DNA of 64,000 nt, taken from assembly GCF_002930645.1 (NCBI RefSeq), contig NZ_PSNW01000013.1:1-64000 (forward strand), read 5' to 3'. Below, piece by piece: positions 8,466 through 59,652 of the stretch. The DNA comes from Solimonas fluminis. GTDB lineage: Bacteria; Pseudomonadota; Gammaproteobacteria; Nevskiales; Nevskiaceae. The translations under genes were made by a program, and so were the position numbers. The notes below the pieces were generated by a model that saw only the letters and a list, made by a program, of their open reading frames with translations, did no database searches and was not told the DNA's origin. Position 1 is the first letter of the stretch. Every line of letters starts with the position of its first letter.

Positions 8466-9050
8466 TTCTTCGCGCTTTGGCGATGACTAAATGTCATCGC
8501 CTGCGAAGAATCACGGGCGGCCATGGATGGCCGCCCAGGGGCCAGATTGAGAGGCGAAGACCCGCCATGGATGGCATCCCCGCATCCCGGCGATGACTAA
8601 ATGTCATCGCCTGCGAAGAATCACGGGCGGCCATGGAATGTTTGGCCTCGCTGAGGCATGACTTAATGTCATGCCGAAGTAAGTCAAACATGCCCAGGGG
8701 CCAGATCGAGAGGCGAAGTCCCGCCATGGATGGCATCCCCGCATCCCGGCGATGACTAAATGTCATCGCCTGCGAAGAATCACGGGCGGCCATGGAATGT
8801 TTGGCCTCGCTGAGGCATGACTTAATGTCATGCCGAAGTAAGTCAAACATGCCCAGGGGCCAGATCGAGAGGCGAAGTCCCGCCATGGATGGCATCCCCG
8901 CATCCCGGCGATGACTAAATGTCATCGCCTGCGAAGAATCACGGGCGGCCATGGAATGTTTGGCCTCGCTGAGGCATGACTTAATGTCATGCCGAAGTAA
9001 GCCAAACATGCCCAGGGGCCAGATCGGGAGTCGAGGTCCCGCCACGGATG
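8464..9050. repeat. Mosaic palindromic repeat array, 159-bp unit
   Basis: Units starting at 8589, 8748 and 8907 repeat at exactly 159 bp; a shorter leading copy starts at 8479 (110-bp step). Two hairpins alternate. Hairpin A is GGCGATGAC-TAAAT-GTCATCGCC at 8479, 8589, 8748 and 8907. Hairpin B is GGCATGAC-TTAAT-GTCATGCC at 8655, 8814 and 8973. Both share the core TGACTWAATGTCA, seven times in all. The leading copy lacks hairpin B and instead has an uninterrupted palindrome around CCATGG at 8516-8537, into which B appears to have been inserted in the other copies. The leading A hairpin also has extra pairing arms (GATTCTTCGC with GCGAAGAATC). There is no coding potential; this is the only content of 8466-9050. 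Confidence 0.9.
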
Positions 9051-42273: not shown

Positions 42274-42290
42274 GCCGCCACGCATCATCC

Positions 42291-42469
42291 CCGTCCGCGA
42301 GAGACCACCGCCTGCCGGTGGCGCCGAAGGCGCAAATCCGCCCGGAATCGCTCAGGCACCCAGGAGCGGACGGTTTTCAAGCGTACTCTGGAGAGCGTTC
42401 GCCCCGCGGCGGACCACCGACGAGGCAGGGACGGCAACGTCCCCGAACTTTCAGGTCCAAGGACAGAGT
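42291..42469 (+). promoter_or_regulatory. Tandem glycine riboswitch
   Basis: Two aptamers in series. Aptamer 1 (42291-42373) is closed by CCGTCCG with CGGACGG and contains GCGAGAGACC. Aptamer 2 (42385-42469) is closed by ACTCTG with CAGAGT and contains GGAGAGCG, GGGACGGCAACGTCCC and CCGAACTTTCAGG. An 11-base linker joins them. The order and motifs match the known tandem glycine class found upstream of gcvT. Forty-one bases separate it from the gcvT start with no intrinsic terminator between, so control is probably on translation, switched on by glycine. Confidence 0.95.
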
Positions 42470-53291: not shown

Positions 53292-53558
53292 ATGGCAGAC
53301 CTCAAGGCCGCCTTCGCCCAGGCCCAGATCGACGTCAAGACCATCACCAAGCGTCCCAGCAACGATGATTTCCTGGCCCTGTACTCGCTGTTCAAGCAGG
53401 CCAACGAGGGTGACGTGAAGGGCAGCCGTCCCGGCATGCTCGACATGGTCGGCCGCGCCAAGTACGACGCCTGGGCCAAGCTCAAGGGCACCGGTGCCGA
53501 CAAGGCCATGCAGCAATACATCGACAAGGTGGCTTCGCTGTTGAAGACGCATAAGTAA
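53292..53558 (+). CDS. Acyl-CoA-binding protein
   Basis: 88 residues, the whole ACBP four-helix fold. LYSLFKQANEGDV and KYDAWAKLKGTG hold the Lys and Tyr that bind CoA phosphate and adenine. It carries long-chain acyl-CoAs in the cytoplasm. ACBPs are uncommon in Enterobacteria but frequent in lipid-degrading proteobacteria. One base after the stop codon a repeated hairpin element begins. Confidence 0.93.
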   Translation: MADLKAAFAQAQIDVKTITKRPSNDDFLALYSLFKQANEGDVKGSRPGMLDMVGRAKYDAWAKLKGTGADKAMQQYIDKVASLLKTHK

Positions 53559-53559
53559 A

Positions 53560-54182
53560 GCCCCGAGCAGCGTGGAGGGGCCCCAACGAAGTTGGGGATC
53601 CTAGCGTCGCGAGTGGGCGGGGGGAGTTGACCGCCCCTGCCATCGATACCGCTGGTCCAGAAAACGAAGAGCAGCGTGGAGGGGCCCCAACGAAGTTGGG
53701 GATCCTAGCGTCGCGAGTGGGCGGGGGAGTTGACCGCCCCTGCCATCGATACCGCTGGTCCAGAAAACGAAGAGCAGCGTGGAGGGGCCCCAACGAAGTT
53801 GGGGATCCTAGCGTCGCGAGTGGGCGGGGGAGTTGACCGCCCCTGCCATCGATACCGCTGGTCCAGAAAACGAAGAGCAGCGTGGAGGGGCCCCAACGAA
53901 GTTGGGGATCCTAGCGTCGCGAGTGGGCGGGGGAGTTGACCGCCCCTGCCATCGATACCGCTGGTCCAGAAAACGAAGAGCAGCGTGGAGGGGCCCCAAC
54001 GAAGTTGGGGATCCTAGCGTCGCGAGTGGGCGGGGGGAGTTGACCGCCCCTGCCATCGATACCGCTGGTCCAGAAAACGAAGAGCAGCGTGGAGGGGCCC
54101 CAACGAAGTTGGGGATCCTGGTGTCGCGAGTGGGCGTCGCGAGTTGTCTGTCCTATCCATCGACACACTGGTTCGGAAAACA
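53560..54182. repeat. Tandem array of a 103-104-bp hairpin element, about six copies
   Basis: Copies of GAGCAGCGTGGAGGGGCCCC begin at 53565, 53669, 53772, 53875, 53978 and 54082. The spacing is 103 bp, or 104 where a G-run has six rather than five G. Each unit has a hairpin CCCCAAC-GAA-GTTGGGG (53581-53597 in copy 1) followed by a GGGCGG...CCGCCC stem. The first copy starts GCCCC directly after the acyl-CoA-binding protein stop. Copy 6 changes at about 54120 and runs into the terminator at 54181. Copies are otherwise nearly identical and have no variable spacers. A single related element lies inverted at 56964-57023. Confidence 0.92.
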
Positions 54183-54211
54183 AGAAAGGCGGCCATTGGC
54201 CGCCTTTCTTG
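54181..54211. terminator. Perfect 14-bp hairpin between the array and a DUF1302 gene
   Basis: CAAGAAAGGCGGCC pairs with GGCCGCCTTTCTTG across ATT. It lies 30 bases past the minus-strand DUF1302 stop and could end both that gene and the array transcript. A second, imperfect palindrome (CCCGCGCGCGGG core) is at about 54215-54238. Confidence 0.75.
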
Positions 54212-54240
54212 TCTCTCTTCCCGCGCGCGGGAGAGAGGCG

Positions 54241-56799
54241 TCAGAACTGGTACCGCACGAACGCCTGCGCAAAATCGCGATCGCGGTACAGGTTGTTGTC
54301 GCCGCCGCCGAAGAACCAGCCGTAGCCCACGGTGAACGACAGCGCCTCCTTGTAGCGCGTCTCCAGGTTGGCCAGGACCTGCTTGCGGCCCTTGACGAAG
54401 TTTTCCGCGGGGCCCGGGGCGGTGCCGTTGACGTCGTGCATCCACACGATGAAGGGCTGCAGGCTGATGCCGGGCGCCACGCTCTCGTACTTCACGATGG
54501 TGATCAGGCGGTAGCCCCAGGAGAACTTGTCGACGTAGTCGTCCAGGTTCGCCTGGTGCGGGTTGAAGCGCAGGCCGTCGCCGTAGACGTCGCCGGCGTC
54601 GACGTCGTAGATGCCGTCGCCGTTGCGGTCGTAGTTGACCGTGCAGCTCGGGTTGGTGGAGCAGGCCTGGCGCGAACCGTCGGCGCCACTGCCGTCGGCG
54701 CCGGCGCTGGCGTGGGTGTAGACGCCGGGCGCCTCGATCTGCAGCTGGTCCAGCGGCGGCAGGTCCGGCACCCAGACGGCGCCGAACTCGCCCACCAGCT
54801 GGATCTGGTCGGCCGCGAAGGGGTTCTCGGTGGCGCCCAGCACGCGGGTGAAGCCGAGGTTGAACTGCAGGGTGTCGAATTCCTCGTAGCCGCGGATATA
54901 GCTGTTCGCCGGGTTCTCGCCGATCACGCCGCCGCGGTAGGGAATGACGAAGCTGGGGAAGGCGCGCGCCGAGCCCGGCACGTGGCCCACCAGCAGGTTG
55001 ATGGTGTCGCGGTAGACGATGTTGCCATTGGCGTCGGTGAAGTCGCTGCTGCCGTACTCATTGGGTACGAACTGGCCGTTCTGGTTGAAGCCGCTGCCGC
55101 CGCGCGAGCCGTAGCAGCCCAGGCTCTGGTCATGGCAGCGCGTCAGCGTCGGGCCCAGCGCGGCGAAGGCCAGGTCGGTGACGGCGACCTGCAGCGGCTG
55201 GTCCGGGCGGTAGGCCACCTCGCCCTGAAGCGAGTAGTCGCCGAGGGTGGTATTGAAGCTGAAGCCCAGCATCTTCAGGTTCTCGGGGTACTCGAAGAAG
55301 GGCTGCGGCGAGTCCAGCGCGATGGCGTTGGAATGCGGCTGGCCCGGCTGGCCGGTCAGCAGCTCGCTGAGGCCGGCGAGGTTGGCCAGGCCCAGGTCGG
55401 CGAGGATGGCCGGATTTGCCAGGCCCAGCAGCAGGGCGTCGCCGGTGAGGCGCAGCGTCGCCCCGAGGTTGGTGGTGACGGGCACGTTCGGGCAGGCCTG
55501 CAGGAACGTGCTGGTGTTGGTGGCGTTGATCCCCAGCGGATTGCCCTCGGCACGGGCGCAGGAGGCCGCCGACGACTTGAAGCTGACGTAGGGCAGCTTC
55601 GAGTGGTAGTTCATGAAGTAGAAGCCCAGCTCGGTGCCGTTGTTGAGGGTCTCGGCGTAGTACTTGAAGGCGATGCCGAACTGGCCCTGGTCGCTGGCCT
55701 CGCGGTCCTTGCCGCGCAGGAAGGTGGTCGTGGTCGGCGTGATCAGCGTCAGCGGGTTGTCGGCATAGCCGAGCTGCTGGCGCGCGGTGGCACCGGCATA
55801 GGCGCGGTCGGGGTCGTCCGGCGAGGTGCCGAAGGTGAGGTTGAGGCTGTCGACGGCGTTATTGCTGCCGATGTCGTTGAAGCCGAAGTAGCTGCCGGGC
55901 GCCGGGGCTATCACGGGCTTCCACTCGAACTGGTAGTAGGCCTCGACGGTGGCGTTCTCGAACACGTCCATGCTGGCGAACAGCGAGGCGATGGGCGTGA
56001 ACACTTCCTCCACCTGGTAGCCGACGCGGTAGAGGTTGTTGGCGTCCACCGGCTGGGCCTGGTTGACCGAGCCGATCACCAGCAGGGTGGACTCGCCCCA
56101 GTTGACGGTCTGTCGACCGAGCTTGAAGGCCACTTCCTTGTCGCCCCAGATCGGCAGGCGTCCGGAGATGTTGGCGTCGAGCCACTGCAGGTCGCTGCCC
56201 ACCTGGCGCAGCACCTCGCCGTCGCGTCGCTTGCTGCGTACCGCCTCGCCCTTGCCGTAGACGCGGGTGAAGAACCGGTTGGATTCCGCGCTGCCGGTGG
56301 TGGCGACACGCTCCACGTTCTCCGGCGTGATCATGTTGGGGTGGACTTCGGTGAAGTCGTTGTTGACGAAGTCGTAGAACGCGAGCCAGCGGGCGAAGAA
56401 GCCGAAGCCGTTCCAGTTCAGCGTCAGGTCCTGGGTGACCTTGGCCACGCCCTGGAACATGTCGCCCTGGTCGTAGTTCAGGTTGCCGTCGTCGTTGCGC
56501 ATGCTGAACTGGCCCGGGGCATCGGCGAGGTGCTGCGCCGGATAGGTCTGCTCCTTGAACAGGCCCTGGCAGGACTGGTAGCGCCCGCCGCAGAGGTCCG
56601 GATCCAGGTTGGCCTTGCCCACCAGGTCCGAGGCGCGGTCCTGCATGCGCCAGGCCGCGCCGGCGGTGATCGCCGTATTGAGCACGCCGGTGACCTGGCC
56701 GTCGGCGAAGTCGAAGGTGAGGGCGTGGGCGGGGGCGGCGCAGGCCAGCGCCAGCAGCGCGGCAACGGAGCGGTTCAACCGGCAGCGGCTGTTCTTCAT
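54241..56799 (-). CDS. DUF1302 outer-membrane protein 1
   Basis: 852 residues. Start 56799 gives a Sec signal ending APAHA; ATGs further upstream lack it. The mature chain begins LTFDFADGQVTGVLNTAIT, is rich in Tyr, Asn and aromatic beta-strand motifs, and ends FVRYQF, consistent with an outer-membrane barrel. DUF1302 proteins often occur with DUF1329 proteins and RND permeases and are tied to use of hydrophobic compounds, but no such partner is visible here. It is a clear paralogue of the next protein: both N- and C-terminal 60 residues are nearly identical, and the centre differs. Confidence 0.9.
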   Translation of the reverse strand: MKNSRCRLNRSVAALLALACAAPAHALTFDFADGQVTGVLNTAITAGAAWRMQDRASDLVGKANLDPDLCGGRYQSCQGLFKEQTYPAQHLADAPGQFSMRNDDGNLNYDQGDMFQGVAKVTQDLTLNWNGFGFFARWLAFYDFVNNDFTEVHPNMITPENVERVATTGSAESNRFFTRVYGKGEAVRSKRRDGEVLRQVGSDLQWLDANISGRLPIWGDKEVAFKLGRQTVNWGESTLLVIGSVNQAQPVDANNLYRVGYQVEEVFTPIASLFASMDVFENATVEAYYQFEWKPVIAPAPGSYFGFNDIGSNNAVDSLNLTFGTSPDDPDRAYAGATARQQLGYADNPLTLITPTTTTFLRGKDREASDQGQFGIAFKYYAETLNNGTELGFYFMNYHSKLPYVSFKSSAASCARAEGNPLGINATNTSTFLQACPNVPVTTNLGATLRLTGDALLLGLANPAILADLGLANLAGLSELLTGQPGQPHSNAIALDSPQPFFEYPENLKMLGFSFNTTLGDYSLQGEVAYRPDQPLQVAVTDLAFAALGPTLTRCHDQSLGCYGSRGGSGFNQNGQFVPNEYGSSDFTDANGNIVYRDTINLLVGHVPGSARAFPSFVIPYRGGVIGENPANSYIRGYEEFDTLQFNLGFTRVLGATENPFAADQIQLVGEFGAVWVPDLPPLDQLQIEAPGVYTHASAGADGSGADGSRQACSTNPSCTVNYDRNGDGIYDVDAGDVYGDGLRFNPHQANLDDYVDKFSWGYRLITIVKYESVAPGISLQPFIVWMHDVNGTAPGPAENFVKGRKQVLANLETRYKEALSFTVGYGWFFGGGDNNLYRDRDFAQAFVRYQF

Positions 56800-56889
56800 G
56801 GGGGTAATCCTCGTCAGTTCTCGCGCCAGGCCCTTCATGGGGTCCGGTCGTCGTTGCCGGTATCTTACGCGATGCCTGCCGTCCAAAAG

Positions 56890-56915
56890 AAAAGCCCGCC
56901 GTGAGGCGGGCTTTT
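56890..56915 (-). terminator. Intrinsic terminator between the DUF1302 genes
   Basis: AAAAGCCCGCC, loop, GGCGGGCTTTT. On the minus strand the stem is followed by a run rich in T (TTTTCTTTT), as expected for a terminator of the downstream-pointing DUF1302-2 transcript. The rest of 56800-57024 holds the hairpin element at 56964 and no gene. Confidence 0.8.
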
Positions 56916-56963
56916 GTACTGAACCGTGAGTCGGATGGCAGCCTGTCAGGCGCTCCAATCCGC

Positions 56964-57023
56964 CGACTCGCTACGCCAGGATCCCCATGCTTCCGCATGG
57001 GGGCCCTCCACGCTGCTCGGGGC
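56964..57023 (-). repeat. Single copy of the array element, one base after the DUF1302-2 stop
   Basis: In the gene's direction it reads GCCCCGAGCAGCGTGGAGGG, then hairpin CCCCATGC-GGAA-GCATGGGG, then ATCCTGGCGTAGCGAGTC. It matches the units at 53560-54182 apart from the upper stem and loop, where both arms have changed together and pairing is kept. One base separates it from the TAA, exactly as after the acyl-CoA-binding protein gene. Confidence 0.85.
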
Positions 57024-57024
57024 G

Positions 57025-59652
57025 TTAGAACTGGTAGCGCACGAAGGCCTGGGCGAAATCGCGGTCGCTGTACAGGTTGTTGTCGCCGCCGCCGAAGAAC
57101 CAGCCGTAGCCCACGGTGAAGGAGATGGCTTCCTTGTAGCGGGTTTCCAGGTTGGCCAGCACCGACTTGCGGCCCTTGACGAAGTTTTCCGCCGGGCCCG
57201 GGCCAGTGCCGTTCACGTCGTGGCTCCAGATGATGAAGGGCTGCAGGCTGATGCCCGGCGCGACGCTTTCGTACTTGATGATGCTGATGATGCGATACCC
57301 CCAGGAGAACTTGTCGACGAAGTCGTCCAGGTCGGCCTGGTGCGGGTTGAAGCGCAGGCCGTCCGGACCGTAGCTGCAGGTCGGGTTGGTCGAGCAGGCC
57401 TGCTGCTGGCCGCCCACCGGCACCCAGGGGTTGGTCTGGGCGTTGTGGGGCAGGGACGGGTCCTTCAGCACGAAGCCGGAGCCGTCGGCGCCGGCGGTGG
57501 CGCTGGTGAAGACGCCGGGGGCTTCGATCTGCAGCTGGTCCAGGGCCGGCAGGTCGGGAATCCAGACCGCGCCGAATTCGCCCACCAGCTGCACCTGGTC
57601 GGCGCCGATCGGGTTGTCGGTGGCGCCCAGCACCTGTGTGAAGCCCAGGTTGAACTGGAAGGTGTCGAATTCTTCGTAGCCGCGGATGTAGCTGTTCGGC
57701 GCGTTCTCGCCGACCACGCCGCCGCGGTAGGGGATCACGAAGTTGGGGAAGGCGCGGGCCGAGCCCGGGCCGTGGCCCAGCAGGATGTTGACGGTGTCGT
57801 GGTAGGGGTTGTTGCCGTTCTGGTCGAGGAAGTCGCTGGGGTTGTAGTGGATTTGATCGCCGTTCTCGTCATAGCCCTGGCCGCCCGCGGTGGAGCCGGC
57901 GCAGTTCAGGTTCGGGTCGTGGCAGCGCGTCAGCGTCGGGCCGGCGGCGGCCAGCGACAGGTCGGCGATGGCGACCTGCAGCGGCTGGTCGGGGCGGTAG
58001 GCCACCTCACCCTGGATCGAGTAGTCGCCCACGGTGGTGTTGAAGCTGATGCCGTACATCTTCAGGTCTTCGGGGTACTCGAAGAAGATGCGGGCGGTAT
58101 CCAGCGCCACGGCCGAGCGGCTGGTGCCGGTGGCATTGGGGTCGCCGCCGAGCAGGAAGGTCGGCAGGGCGCGCAGCAGGTCGACGAGGCCGCCGACCGG
58201 GTTCTGCGTCAGGCCCAGGTCGTTGAGGATGCCCGGCCTCGCGAACAGGGGCAGCGCATCGTTGAGCAGCTGGGTAGCCGGCGACTCCGGGTCGACGATG
58301 GCCAGGCCATTGGTGAAGACCGGGTTGTCCGCGCAGGCCTCGATGTACTGCAGGGTGTTGGTGACGTCGATGCCGCGGGCATTGCCCTCGCGGCGCGCGC
58401 AGGAGGCGTCGGTGGACATGAAGCTGACATAGGGCAGCTTCGAGTGGTAGTTCATGAAGTAGAAGCCGAACTCCGTACCGGCGTTGAAGTTCTCGGCGTA
58501 GTACTTGAAGGCGACGCCGTACTGGCCGCTGTCGCGGGCTTCCTTGTCCTTGTTGCGCAGCACCGTGGCGGAGGTCGGCGTCACCAGCGTCAGCGGGTTG
58601 TCGAGGTAGCCGGTCTGCGTCGCGGCGCTGTCGCCGCGATAGGCGCGGTCCGGGTCCTCGGCGGAGCCGCCGAAGCTCAGGTTGGCGTTCATCACGGCGT
58701 TGTTGGTGCCGATGTCGGCGAAGCCGAAGTAGCTGCCCGGCGCGGGCGCCTCCACCGGCTGCCATTCGAGCTGGTAGTAGGCCTCGAGCGTGGCGTTCTC
58801 GAACAGGTCCATGCTGGCGAATACCGAGGCGATCGGCGTGAACACCTCTTCCACCTGGAAGCCGACGCGGTAGAGGTTGTTGGCATTGACCGGCTGGGCC
58901 TGGTTGATCGAGCCGATCACCAGCAGCGTGGATTCACCCCAGTTGATGGTCTGGCGGCCGATCTTGAAGCTGATCTCCTTGTCGCCCCAGACCGGCAGGC
59001 GGCCGTAGATGTTGGCGTCCAGCCACTGCAGGTCGGTGCCGATCTGGCGCAGCGCTTCGCCGTCGTTGCGCTTGTTGCGCACCACGCCGCCGGGGCCGTA
59101 GACCCGCTTGTTGGCGAAGTAGCGGTTGGAGATCTCGTCGTCGCCCGCGTAACCGACCTCCGCGACGTTCTCCCTGGTGATGCGGTTCGGGTGGTACTCG
59201 GTGAAATCGTTGTTGACGAAGTCGTAGAACGCCAGCCAGCGGGCGAAGAAGCCGAACTCGCCCCAGGTCAGGTTGATGTCCTGCGTGACCTTGGCCACGC
59301 CCTGGACGATGTCGCCCTTGTCGTAGTTCAGGTTGCCGTCGTCGTTGCGCATGCTGTACTGGCCGGGCGCGTTGGCCAGGCGCTGCGACGGGTAGAGCTG
59401 GTCGCGGAACAGCGACTGGCATTGCTGGTACTGCTTGTTGCAGAGATCCGGGTCCAGGTTCGACTTGCCCACCAGGTCGTCGCTGCGATCCTGCATGCGC
59501 CAGGCGCCGCCGACGGTGATGGCGGTGTTGAGGACACCTTCCACCTGGCCGTCGAACAGGCTCAGGTTGAGGGCCAAGGTCGGGGTGGCGGCCAGCAGGC
59601 CGGACAAGGCAAGGGCGGGCAATGCCGCGCGCCGCAGGGGGGCTGACGCCAT
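57025..59652 (-). CDS. DUF1302 outer-membrane protein 2
   Basis: 875 residues. A signal peptide ends near TPTLA; the mature part opens LNLSLFDGQVEGVLNTAITVG and ends FVRYQF. DPDLC and other Cys near the N-terminus are kept in both paralogues. GAGGAG seven bases before the ATG. The gene lies upstream of DUF1302-1 on the same strand but a terminator separates them, so each is probably transcribed alone. Role inferred as uptake or export of hydrophobic substrates; unproven. Confidence 0.9.
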   Translation of the reverse strand: MASAPLRRAALPALALSGLLAATPTLALNLSLFDGQVEGVLNTAITVGGAWRMQDRSDDLVGKSNLDPDLCNKQYQQCQSLFRDQLYPSQRLANAPGQYSMRNDDGNLNYDKGDIVQGVAKVTQDINLTWGEFGFFARWLAFYDFVNNDFTEYHPNRITRENVAEVGYAGDDEISNRYFANKRVYGPGGVVRNKRNDGEALRQIGTDLQWLDANIYGRLPVWGDKEISFKIGRQTINWGESTLLVIGSINQAQPVNANNLYRVGFQVEEVFTPIASVFASMDLFENATLEAYYQLEWQPVEAPAPGSYFGFADIGTNNAVMNANLSFGGSAEDPDRAYRGDSAATQTGYLDNPLTLVTPTSATVLRNKDKEARDSGQYGVAFKYYAENFNAGTEFGFYFMNYHSKLPYVSFMSTDASCARREGNARGIDVTNTLQYIEACADNPVFTNGLAIVDPESPATQLLNDALPLFARPGILNDLGLTQNPVGGLVDLLRALPTFLLGGDPNATGTSRSAVALDTARIFFEYPEDLKMYGISFNTTVGDYSIQGEVAYRPDQPLQVAIADLSLAAAGPTLTRCHDPNLNCAGSTAGGQGYDENGDQIHYNPSDFLDQNGNNPYHDTVNILLGHGPGSARAFPNFVIPYRGGVVGENAPNSYIRGYEEFDTFQFNLGFTQVLGATDNPIGADQVQLVGEFGAVWIPDLPALDQLQIEAPGVFTSATAGADGSGFVLKDPSLPHNAQTNPWVPVGGQQQACSTNPTCSYGPDGLRFNPHQADLDDFVDKFSWGYRIISIIKYESVAPGISLQPFIIWSHDVNGTGPGPAENFVKGRKSVLANLETRYKEAISFTVGYGWFFGGGDNNLYSDRDFAQAFVRYQF

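Follow-up and report, generated by a model that had tools for sequence, protein, structure and literature searches.

A palindromic element family of Nevskiaceae that abuts stop and start codons: a probable REP-like mobile repeat

Why should the same hairpin begin exactly one base after the stop codons of two unrelated genes? The question is raised by a 64,000-nucleotide stretch of the Solimonas fluminis genome (contig NZ_PSNW01000013.1, positions 1 to 64,000; hereafter the window), in which an initial annotation had noticed such an element after an acyl-CoA-binding protein (ACBP) gene and after a DUF1302 gene. It had proposed an RNA structure under selection in the 3' untranslated region (3'-UTR), with either a defined insertion rule or a functional role at the 3' end. 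We describe here a dispersed family with a common structure, with sites that are occupied in some genomes and empty in relatives, with tandem arrays and with a marked rule of position. Comparison of the sequences leads us to consider it probable that the element is a non-autonomous mobile palindrome, akin to the repetitive extragenic palindromes (REPs) and following a gene-boundary rule, its movement being seen as presence or absence only.

Both copies were found where they had been reported, each one base past a stop codon. On the plus strand, the TAA of the ACBP gene is followed by A, GCCCCGAGCAGCGTGGAGGGG, the hairpin CCCCAAC-GAA-GTTGGGG and ATCCTAGCGTCGCGAGT; on the minus strand, the TAA of the DUF1302 gene is followed by C, GCCCCGAGCAGCGTGGAGGGC, the hairpin CCCCATGC-GGAA-GCATGGGG and ATCCTGGCGTAGCGAGT. 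The features concerned are given below, with scores from R1, a covariance model built from 19 copies of the window genome.

53292..53558, plus strand: ACBP gene (PF00887, E 1.2e-28), stop codon TAA at 53556-53558
53556..53621, plus strand: element copy 1 (hairpin 1), beginning at the stop codon (R1, 81.1 bits); its parts are the outer stem, the GA/AG loop, GCGU/GCGU, GGA/UCC and the inner hairpin CCCCAAC-GAA-GTTGGGG at 53581-53597
53660..54136, plus strand: five more tandem units with a period of 103-104, the last one diverged (R1 matches at 53660, 53763, 53866, 53969 and 54073)
54180..54212, no strand assigned: perfect inverted repeat with 16-base arms, 3' of the array (inverted-repeat search)
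56959..57027, minus strand: element copy 2, flush with the DUF1302 stop codon TAA at 57027-57025 (R1, 77.7 bits)
57025..59652, minus strand: DUF1302 gene ending at copy 2 (PF06980, E 1.1e-165)

The core GAGCAGCGTGGAGGG has seven exact matches in the window, which excludes chance, and six of them fall inside a tandem array after the ACBP gene. Beyond what the initial annotation had described, copy 1 is the head of a six-unit array at 53565-54136 (period 103, 5.5 copies, 98% match by Tandem Repeats Finder), flanked by the ACBP stop codon and by the convergent 3' end of another DUF1302 gene (PF06980). Two further additions are that the conserved unit has a covarying outer stem (GCNNC/GNNGC) and that the element belongs to a dispersed family.

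In the window genome, R1 gave 37 matches at E<=0.001, a number that includes the array units and one contig-end duplicate; the core pattern with at most one mismatch occurred 27 times, and blastn retrieved 26 related places. The three other genomes of the same GTDB genus hold 9, 16 and 6 R1 matches (E<=0.001). Throughout the GTDB family (Nevskia, Hydrocarboniphaga, Solimonas, Stagnimonas), which by the names of the carriers is Nevskiaceae, 24 of 58 genomes and 10 of 12 genera are positive at E<=1e-6; the carriers, patchily distributed, have 1-31 matches each at this threshold, and none of 27 genomes from other families of the same order has an R1 match at E<=1e-6, searches of more than 40 genomes having run under stricter filters that miss weak copies. 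A DNA pattern search in named genomes led to Solimonas, Nevskia, Hydrocarboniphaga and Stagnimonas, 20 of 22 stretches having a model match; pattern matches in metagenome-assembled genomes of Acidobacteria and Caldilineaceae (L190, L196) had none and are thus probably due to chance. Among 368 other genomes drawn from the wider class, a related, diverged copy was present in 2. One of them (G205) has two copies, 111 bases apart, directly after the stop codon of an NADH dehydrogenase chain-3 (nuoA-like) gene, and the other (G165) has one copy beside the end of a DnaJ gene lying on the other strand. Among the distant copies, L338 folds well (z -2.6) and L337 does not (z +1.1). Tandem arrays are present in several genomes, with a spacing mostly of 103-108 bases and of about 65-140 in other arrays.

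Plasmids and phages gave no match to copy 1 and viral contigs none to two core patterns, so that a plasmid, phage or viral origin was rejected. Nothing in Rfam exceeded its gathering score at the element, either in the window or in 19 further loci. One weak overlap was with BjrC68 (13.3 bits vs a gathering score of 39), and the weak matches in the window lay mostly on the downstream inverted repeat, all below gathering scores.

Several unusual forms accompany the family. At L132:1560-2116, four units of 162 bases carry the variant core CCCGGCGAGGGGCCCC..GGGGATCGACGG with weak model matches (23.9 bits), and could possibly represent a sister family. Forms of 113-120 bases with an extra hairpin (e.g. 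TGTGATGGCC..) nested within the inner stem were seen at L048, where the copy stands after rho, and at L101, L103, L144 and L130. By eye, the gene after the copy at L143:2307-2372 resembles an acyl-CoA dehydrogenase gene, and the copy itself follows what seems to be a truncated duplicate of that gene's first codons; in genome G002 (L146), a copy likewise follows a fragment similar to that at L143.

Is the contact with stop codons a rule? Positions were counted for 123 copies, left from 151 matches over 122 loci once 9 identical copies and 19 secondary units of tandem arrays had been set aside; six of the 132 family matches (one in G002, two in G018, two in G015, one in G045) and the contig-end duplicate C31:351 stand outside this count. 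A copy was assigned to the stop class when it starts exactly at the stop codon of an upstream sense open reading frame (ORF) of at least 58 codons, and to the start class when it touches the start of an oppositely running ORF of at least 48 codons, with an offset of -5 to +2. Four copies (L054, L072, L130, L179) were reassigned by eye from the start to the stop class, and L134 (23 bits), ambiguous between the two, was counted as start. On this basis, 74 of the 123 copies lie in sense and have their start exactly at a stop codon, and 26 are antisense copies in contact with a start codon, 17 of which share a single exact offset. Under the functions of the random control, the stop class comprises 75 of 123 copies vs 0.28% of random positions in the same loci, and the exact start offset 17 of 123 vs 1.7%. 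An earlier random control (0.4%, 1.4%) had used criteria unlike those of the count; the present one (0.28%, 1.7% and, for the loose start window considered below, 11.7%) is the one that we trust. The stop rule stands alone, and support for the start rule comes from the exact offset together with the empty sites described below. The initial annotation had suggested a genome-wide comparison of copies with stop codons, which proved clearly non-random. A rule of position is supported by the sense copies at stop codons, and the 26 antisense copies at start codons go beyond what it had described. The adjoining genes include, by NCBIfam, infA, rplS, rho, citrate/2-methylcitrate synthase, isocitrate lyase, guaA, tatC, fliQ, dnaX and trpD. 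Upstream RNA genes as the cause of non-flush copies were rejected, a scan of 19 loci having found no tRNA and no Rfam match.

A G+C-rich hairpin located after stop codons could suggest an intrinsic transcription terminator. We rejected this possibility as extremely improbable: among the copies listed, hairpin 1 is never followed by a T run, the antisense copies sit between co-directional genes, and separate terminator-like hairpins lie downstream, at several infA sites and at 54180-54212 in the window. The latter, the perfect inverted repeat listed above, is judged the likely transcription terminator of the convergent gene pair.

We then come to the structure. Hairpin 1 is about 66 bases long (mostly 61-73) in a whole unit typically of 103-116 bases, and has a conserved core between two freely varying, covarying stems. 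It comprises a GCNNC/GNNGC outer stem in which one T is bulged, then a tandem G.A/A.G, the pairs G-C and C-G and an A.C, followed by GCGU/GCGU with its two G.U pairs, by GGA/UCC, by a bulge rich in G and by the inner stem, which is long. Many copies have a second hairpin after hairpin 1. In the variants L093, L098 and L081, the GA step is replaced by ordinary pairs and the outer stem is continuous. The predicted RNA folds of the window copies reach -33.8 kcal/mol (z -2.5) for copy 1 and -36.1 kcal/mol (z -3.0) for copy 2. Eight stretches were folded singly, these two included; the others gave z -4.4 for L104, -4.5 for L093, -3.6 for L163 and -2.4 for the gene strand of L069, and weak values for L142 (-0.75) and for a stretch of L068 with much coding sequence (0.1).

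The paired stem changes inside a conserved core, on which the initial annotation had insisted, were borne out in two sets of copies and in a tree-based test. Among the 19 copies of the window genome, 77.7% of cells pair vs 68.8% in shuffles, and 10 pairs are altered on both sides vs 4.9. For 104 distinct copies, in an alignment fitted to the model and with the inner stem partly out of register, 80.4% of cells pair vs 68.4% and 210 cells show a double change vs 70.6; the count of pairs in which a double change occurs (14 vs 12.3) is unremarkable, 65 of 500 shuffles reaching 14. The pair counts exceed 500 shuffles on most measures, and exceed slid controls as well. With a tree-based null of our own (25 simulated alignments, 2080 column pairs), the top 11 column pairs comprise eight structure pairs, one pair that prolongs the structure to the stop codon's third base, and two inner-stem pairs one column off register.

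The matching arms could also have arisen without selection. Template switching inside palindromes makes their arms match, a process known as quasipalindrome correction, and the stems of a passive repeat could covary in this way. The long perfect arms, found even in antisense copies, and a second hairpin that matches host sequence would agree with it. However, template switching should erase conserved mismatches, yet the columns of the GA/AG, A.C and G.U pairs are among the most conserved, two G.U pairs being near-invariant (98 and 103 of 104 copies). It is also symmetric, so that no excess of G.T over A.C is expected, whereas the variable pairs include 41 G.T/T.G vs 11 A.C/C.A (p 3.6e-5 if independent; the copies being related, p-values here are too small). 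We therefore find this explanation quite improbable. The excess of G.T over A.C indicates that one strand is the folding strand, and since the bias is the same in sense copies (19 vs 6) and in antisense copies (10 vs 2), the folding strand is the same in both. This shared bias favours an element recognized as single-stranded DNA, or as RNA before insertion, over an mRNA function alone.

The antisense copies deserve closer attention. A co-directional upstream ORF is present for 25 of the 26. Taking the longest ORF, the upstream gene ends with [AG]TGA in 19 of 25 and the downstream gene starts with ATGA in 20 of 25, both as raw counts; 13 of the 25 have a stop-to-start distance of 115-118 bases. 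Four of these sites are empty in relatives: those at tatC (one relative), at a gene without Pfam match at L069 (three), at fliQ (three) and at a sigma-54 response regulator gene (three). At the empty tatC site, the preceding gene overlaps tatC as ATGA; the response-regulator pair is joined via ATGA in two of three relatives, another pair has a TAATG overlap in one of three, and at the empty fliQ site the stop codon lies a few bases before the ATG. CAT or TCAT stands on both flanks of the insert at all four sites. The second hairpin of antisense copies, with longest arms of 4-13 bases, pairs with the last bases of the upstream gene. With distance alone setting its place, complementarity extends to 59 of 69 bases, vs 41.1 on average and 53 at most in 10,000 shuffles (23 of 26 copies, L090, L106 and L165 being unusable); without L116, L118 and L134 (20 copies), the values are 51 of 60 vs 36.0 and 48. 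Placement via the best arm, which favours the result, gives 63 of 72 vs 42.9 and 55. The host side of the second stem already exists in the empty relative at L068 and in one of three at L069, which means that at these places the element side is what matches the host.

A bolder scenario would be that the element enters an ATGA shared by overlapping genes, duplicates it so that both genes retain their stop or start, and copies adjacent host bases into its second stem; the folded mRNA would rejoin the gene ends and translation would stay coupled, sense copies being the retained, RNA-active form. We put it forward as a whole with much reserve and hold it to be unlikely. If true, an insert in ATGA would be nearly invisible to the host, the translational coupling of the split genes being preserved.

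What do relatives tell us about the sense copies? For nine stop-codon sites, three relatives per site were inspected by eye, and of the resulting 27 comparisons 22 show an empty site, three a remnant, one a diverged copy and one is unclear. Two more sense sites were compared with relatives besides these nine. Some sites recur widely. Among infA 3' ends of 53 genomes, the element is present in eight (seven by R1, G042 by eye), belonging to three genera. A guaA end peptide followed by a copy occurs in seven genomes, which represent four genera (L126 and L185 were confirmed as guaA). The bulged T is missing from six of these copies, which suggests descent over repeated insertion. By end peptide, citrate synthase ends recur in three genera and isocitrate lyase ends in four, with gene identity confirmed for L055, L104, L072 and L107. 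Outside the window's genus, the third stop base goes with its outer-stem partner (G-C 16, G-T 1, A-T 7, A-C 7; Fisher p 0.011); inside it there is no pairing tendency (A-G 22, A-C 8, A-T 1).

As a separate observation, seven further infA 3' ends (L330, L331, L333, L334, L302, L317, L336; by eye) carry instead a CGTC-like palindrome, ..TCATCCCG..CGGGATCCA, with variable tag bases. The hairpin preceding it starts at the stop codon, which is TGA in six of the seven. This is another class of element at the same codon.

Sites shared by several genera, the 74 sense copies at stop codons out of 123, the near-invariant G.U pairs with the excess of G.T over A.C, and a third stop base that covaries outside the window's genus, though not inside, would all suit a cis-acting structured RNA of mRNA 3' ends. 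Such an RNA would block 3' exonucleases or slow ribosome release, and would have spread by gene duplication or conversion without any mobility. As a complete explanation, we judge it rather unlikely. Twenty-six copies are antisense to the gene that they touch and their folding strand is not that of the mRNA, yet they have the same bias; close relatives differ in the sites occupied, the distribution is patchy and units form tandem arrays. The 3'-UTR structure under selection proposed in the initial annotation is thus consistent with the paired changes and the sense stop rule, but is insufficient alone. On the other hand, some stop-codon copies that recur across genera (guaA, infA, citrate synthase, isocitrate lyase) may function as RNA in the 3'-UTR, and retained sense copies may have gained a role in mRNA.

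A REP-like mobile palindrome, part of whose copies may have been retained as RNA, does account for what an RNA function alone leaves unexplained, and the following course of events could be proposed. An enzyme acting on single-strand DNA would read hairpin 1; insertion into a shared ATGA would duplicate the ATGA, so that neither gene is broken; insertions at other places would be purged; and some stop-codon copies would later be kept as structures of mRNA 3' ends. RAYT/Y1 transposases were rejected as a simple answer for the mover, the distribution of Y1_Tnp not tracking that of the element.

A number of observations weigh against mobility with a boundary rule. Y1_Tnp is found in 16 of 24 carriers vs 26 of 34 non-carriers, and the four Y1 loci of the window genome have no element copy within 1.5 kb. 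A target duplication was looked for in stop-codon copies without result. Of the 26 antisense copies, 9 repeat an identical four bases at exactly 116 vs 10 in the control, which reaches this value because nearly all antisense copies share TCAT. The ATGA figures above are raw counts. The recurrence of some stop-codon sites across genera looks like long retention, less like recent hopping. As to position, the 123 copies include 17 that are not flush and 6 that are just near a stop codon, and the loose start window holds 33 of 123 copies (overlapping the stop class) vs 11.7% of random positions. The training copies of R1 begin with T/TAA, which favours flush matches; with a model-free pattern in the window genome, 15 of 19 primary copies are flush (10 at a stop, 5 at a start; by eye). 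Finally, in the tree-based test only two pairs reach E<0.05 singly.

Palindromic repeats at gene ends have long been known, and their places may reflect either a targeting rule or purging. In the present family both sides of a placement rule can be read, namely contact with the stop codon for sense copies and, for antisense ones, a clean splitting of gene pairs sharing ATGA at sites that are empty in relatives. The family is small enough for a site-by-site testing of insertion, target choice and later RNA use. It also illustrates that covarying stems at the 3' end of a gene need not signal an element acting at the level of mRNA.

Other features of the window can be mentioned. The 3' ends of the two DUF1302 genes (54237-54416 vs 57021-57200) are 90% identical over 180 bases, and only the gene ending at 57025 has the element at its stop codon. 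A second tandem array at 8533-9050 (3.3 x 159 bases) contains the palindrome GGCGATGACTAAATGTCATCGCC; similar palindromes elsewhere in the genome and in relatives (L022, L231, L259, L274) form another dispersed palindromic family. A glycine riboswitch aptamer (RF00504, 57.8 bits) lies at 42286-42378.

How does the element compare with known systems? BIMEs and REPINs are composite palindromes in which two hairpins form a unit of about 100 bases, and they occur in tandem arrays. The element shares both features, but its second hairpin is not an inverted copy of hairpin 1 and, in antisense copies, pairs with the host. Small MITE-like insertions such as RPE, Correia and ERIC are non-autonomous, palindromic and located at gene edges or fused to genes; the element is likewise non-autonomous, palindromic and at gene edges, and differs by its strand-specific fold and by having no known transposase. 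Searches of the literature on repeats or palindromes of Solimonas, Nevskiaceae and Hydrocarboniphaga gave no description of it, and a search on insertions into gene overlaps nothing related. Neither the exact two-way rule nor the splitting of ATGA was found in the sections of PMC3733652 (Di Nocera et al. 2013) considered here or in the literature searched.

The closest parallel can be drawn with the GTAG and CGTC REPs. According to the same sections of PMC3733652, these short palindromes stand mostly at gene 3' ends, many within 20 bases of ORF ends, have many stem variants and are in some cases beside or overlapping the stop codon; GTAG REPs often provide a TAG stop, and CGTC REPs are without known transposase. 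In passages of two other papers, REPs have a high copy number, above 100 per genome (PMC2817692), and mRNAs bearing them are degraded by RNase R and PNPase (PMC12320835). Like them, the element is a palindrome at gene 3' ends with stem variants and stop-codon contact. It differs by its size (a hairpin of about 66 bases and a unit mostly of 103-116, vs 20-40 bp) and by its long two-sided conserved core. No unpaired GTAG or CGTC tag lies directly beside the stem: a CGTC occurs within the 3' core TAGCGTCGCGAG, some bases past the inner stem and inside the folded region, and no GTAG is found beside the stem. Copy numbers stay below 100, with 37 matches in the window genome (E<=0.001) and 1-31 per carrier (1e-6, stricter filters). 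Unlike for GTAG REPs, no RAYT/Y1_Tnp gene is flanked by the repeat at the four Y1 loci of its own genome, and 8 of 24 carriers are without Y1_Tnp (E<=0.001). The antisense contact with start codons, mostly at ATGA, is a further difference. Nevertheless, the element is a dispersed extragenic palindrome with a preference for gene 3' ends, that is, a REP in the broad sense, and its contact with the stop codon has a precedent among the REPs described in those sections of PMC3733652.

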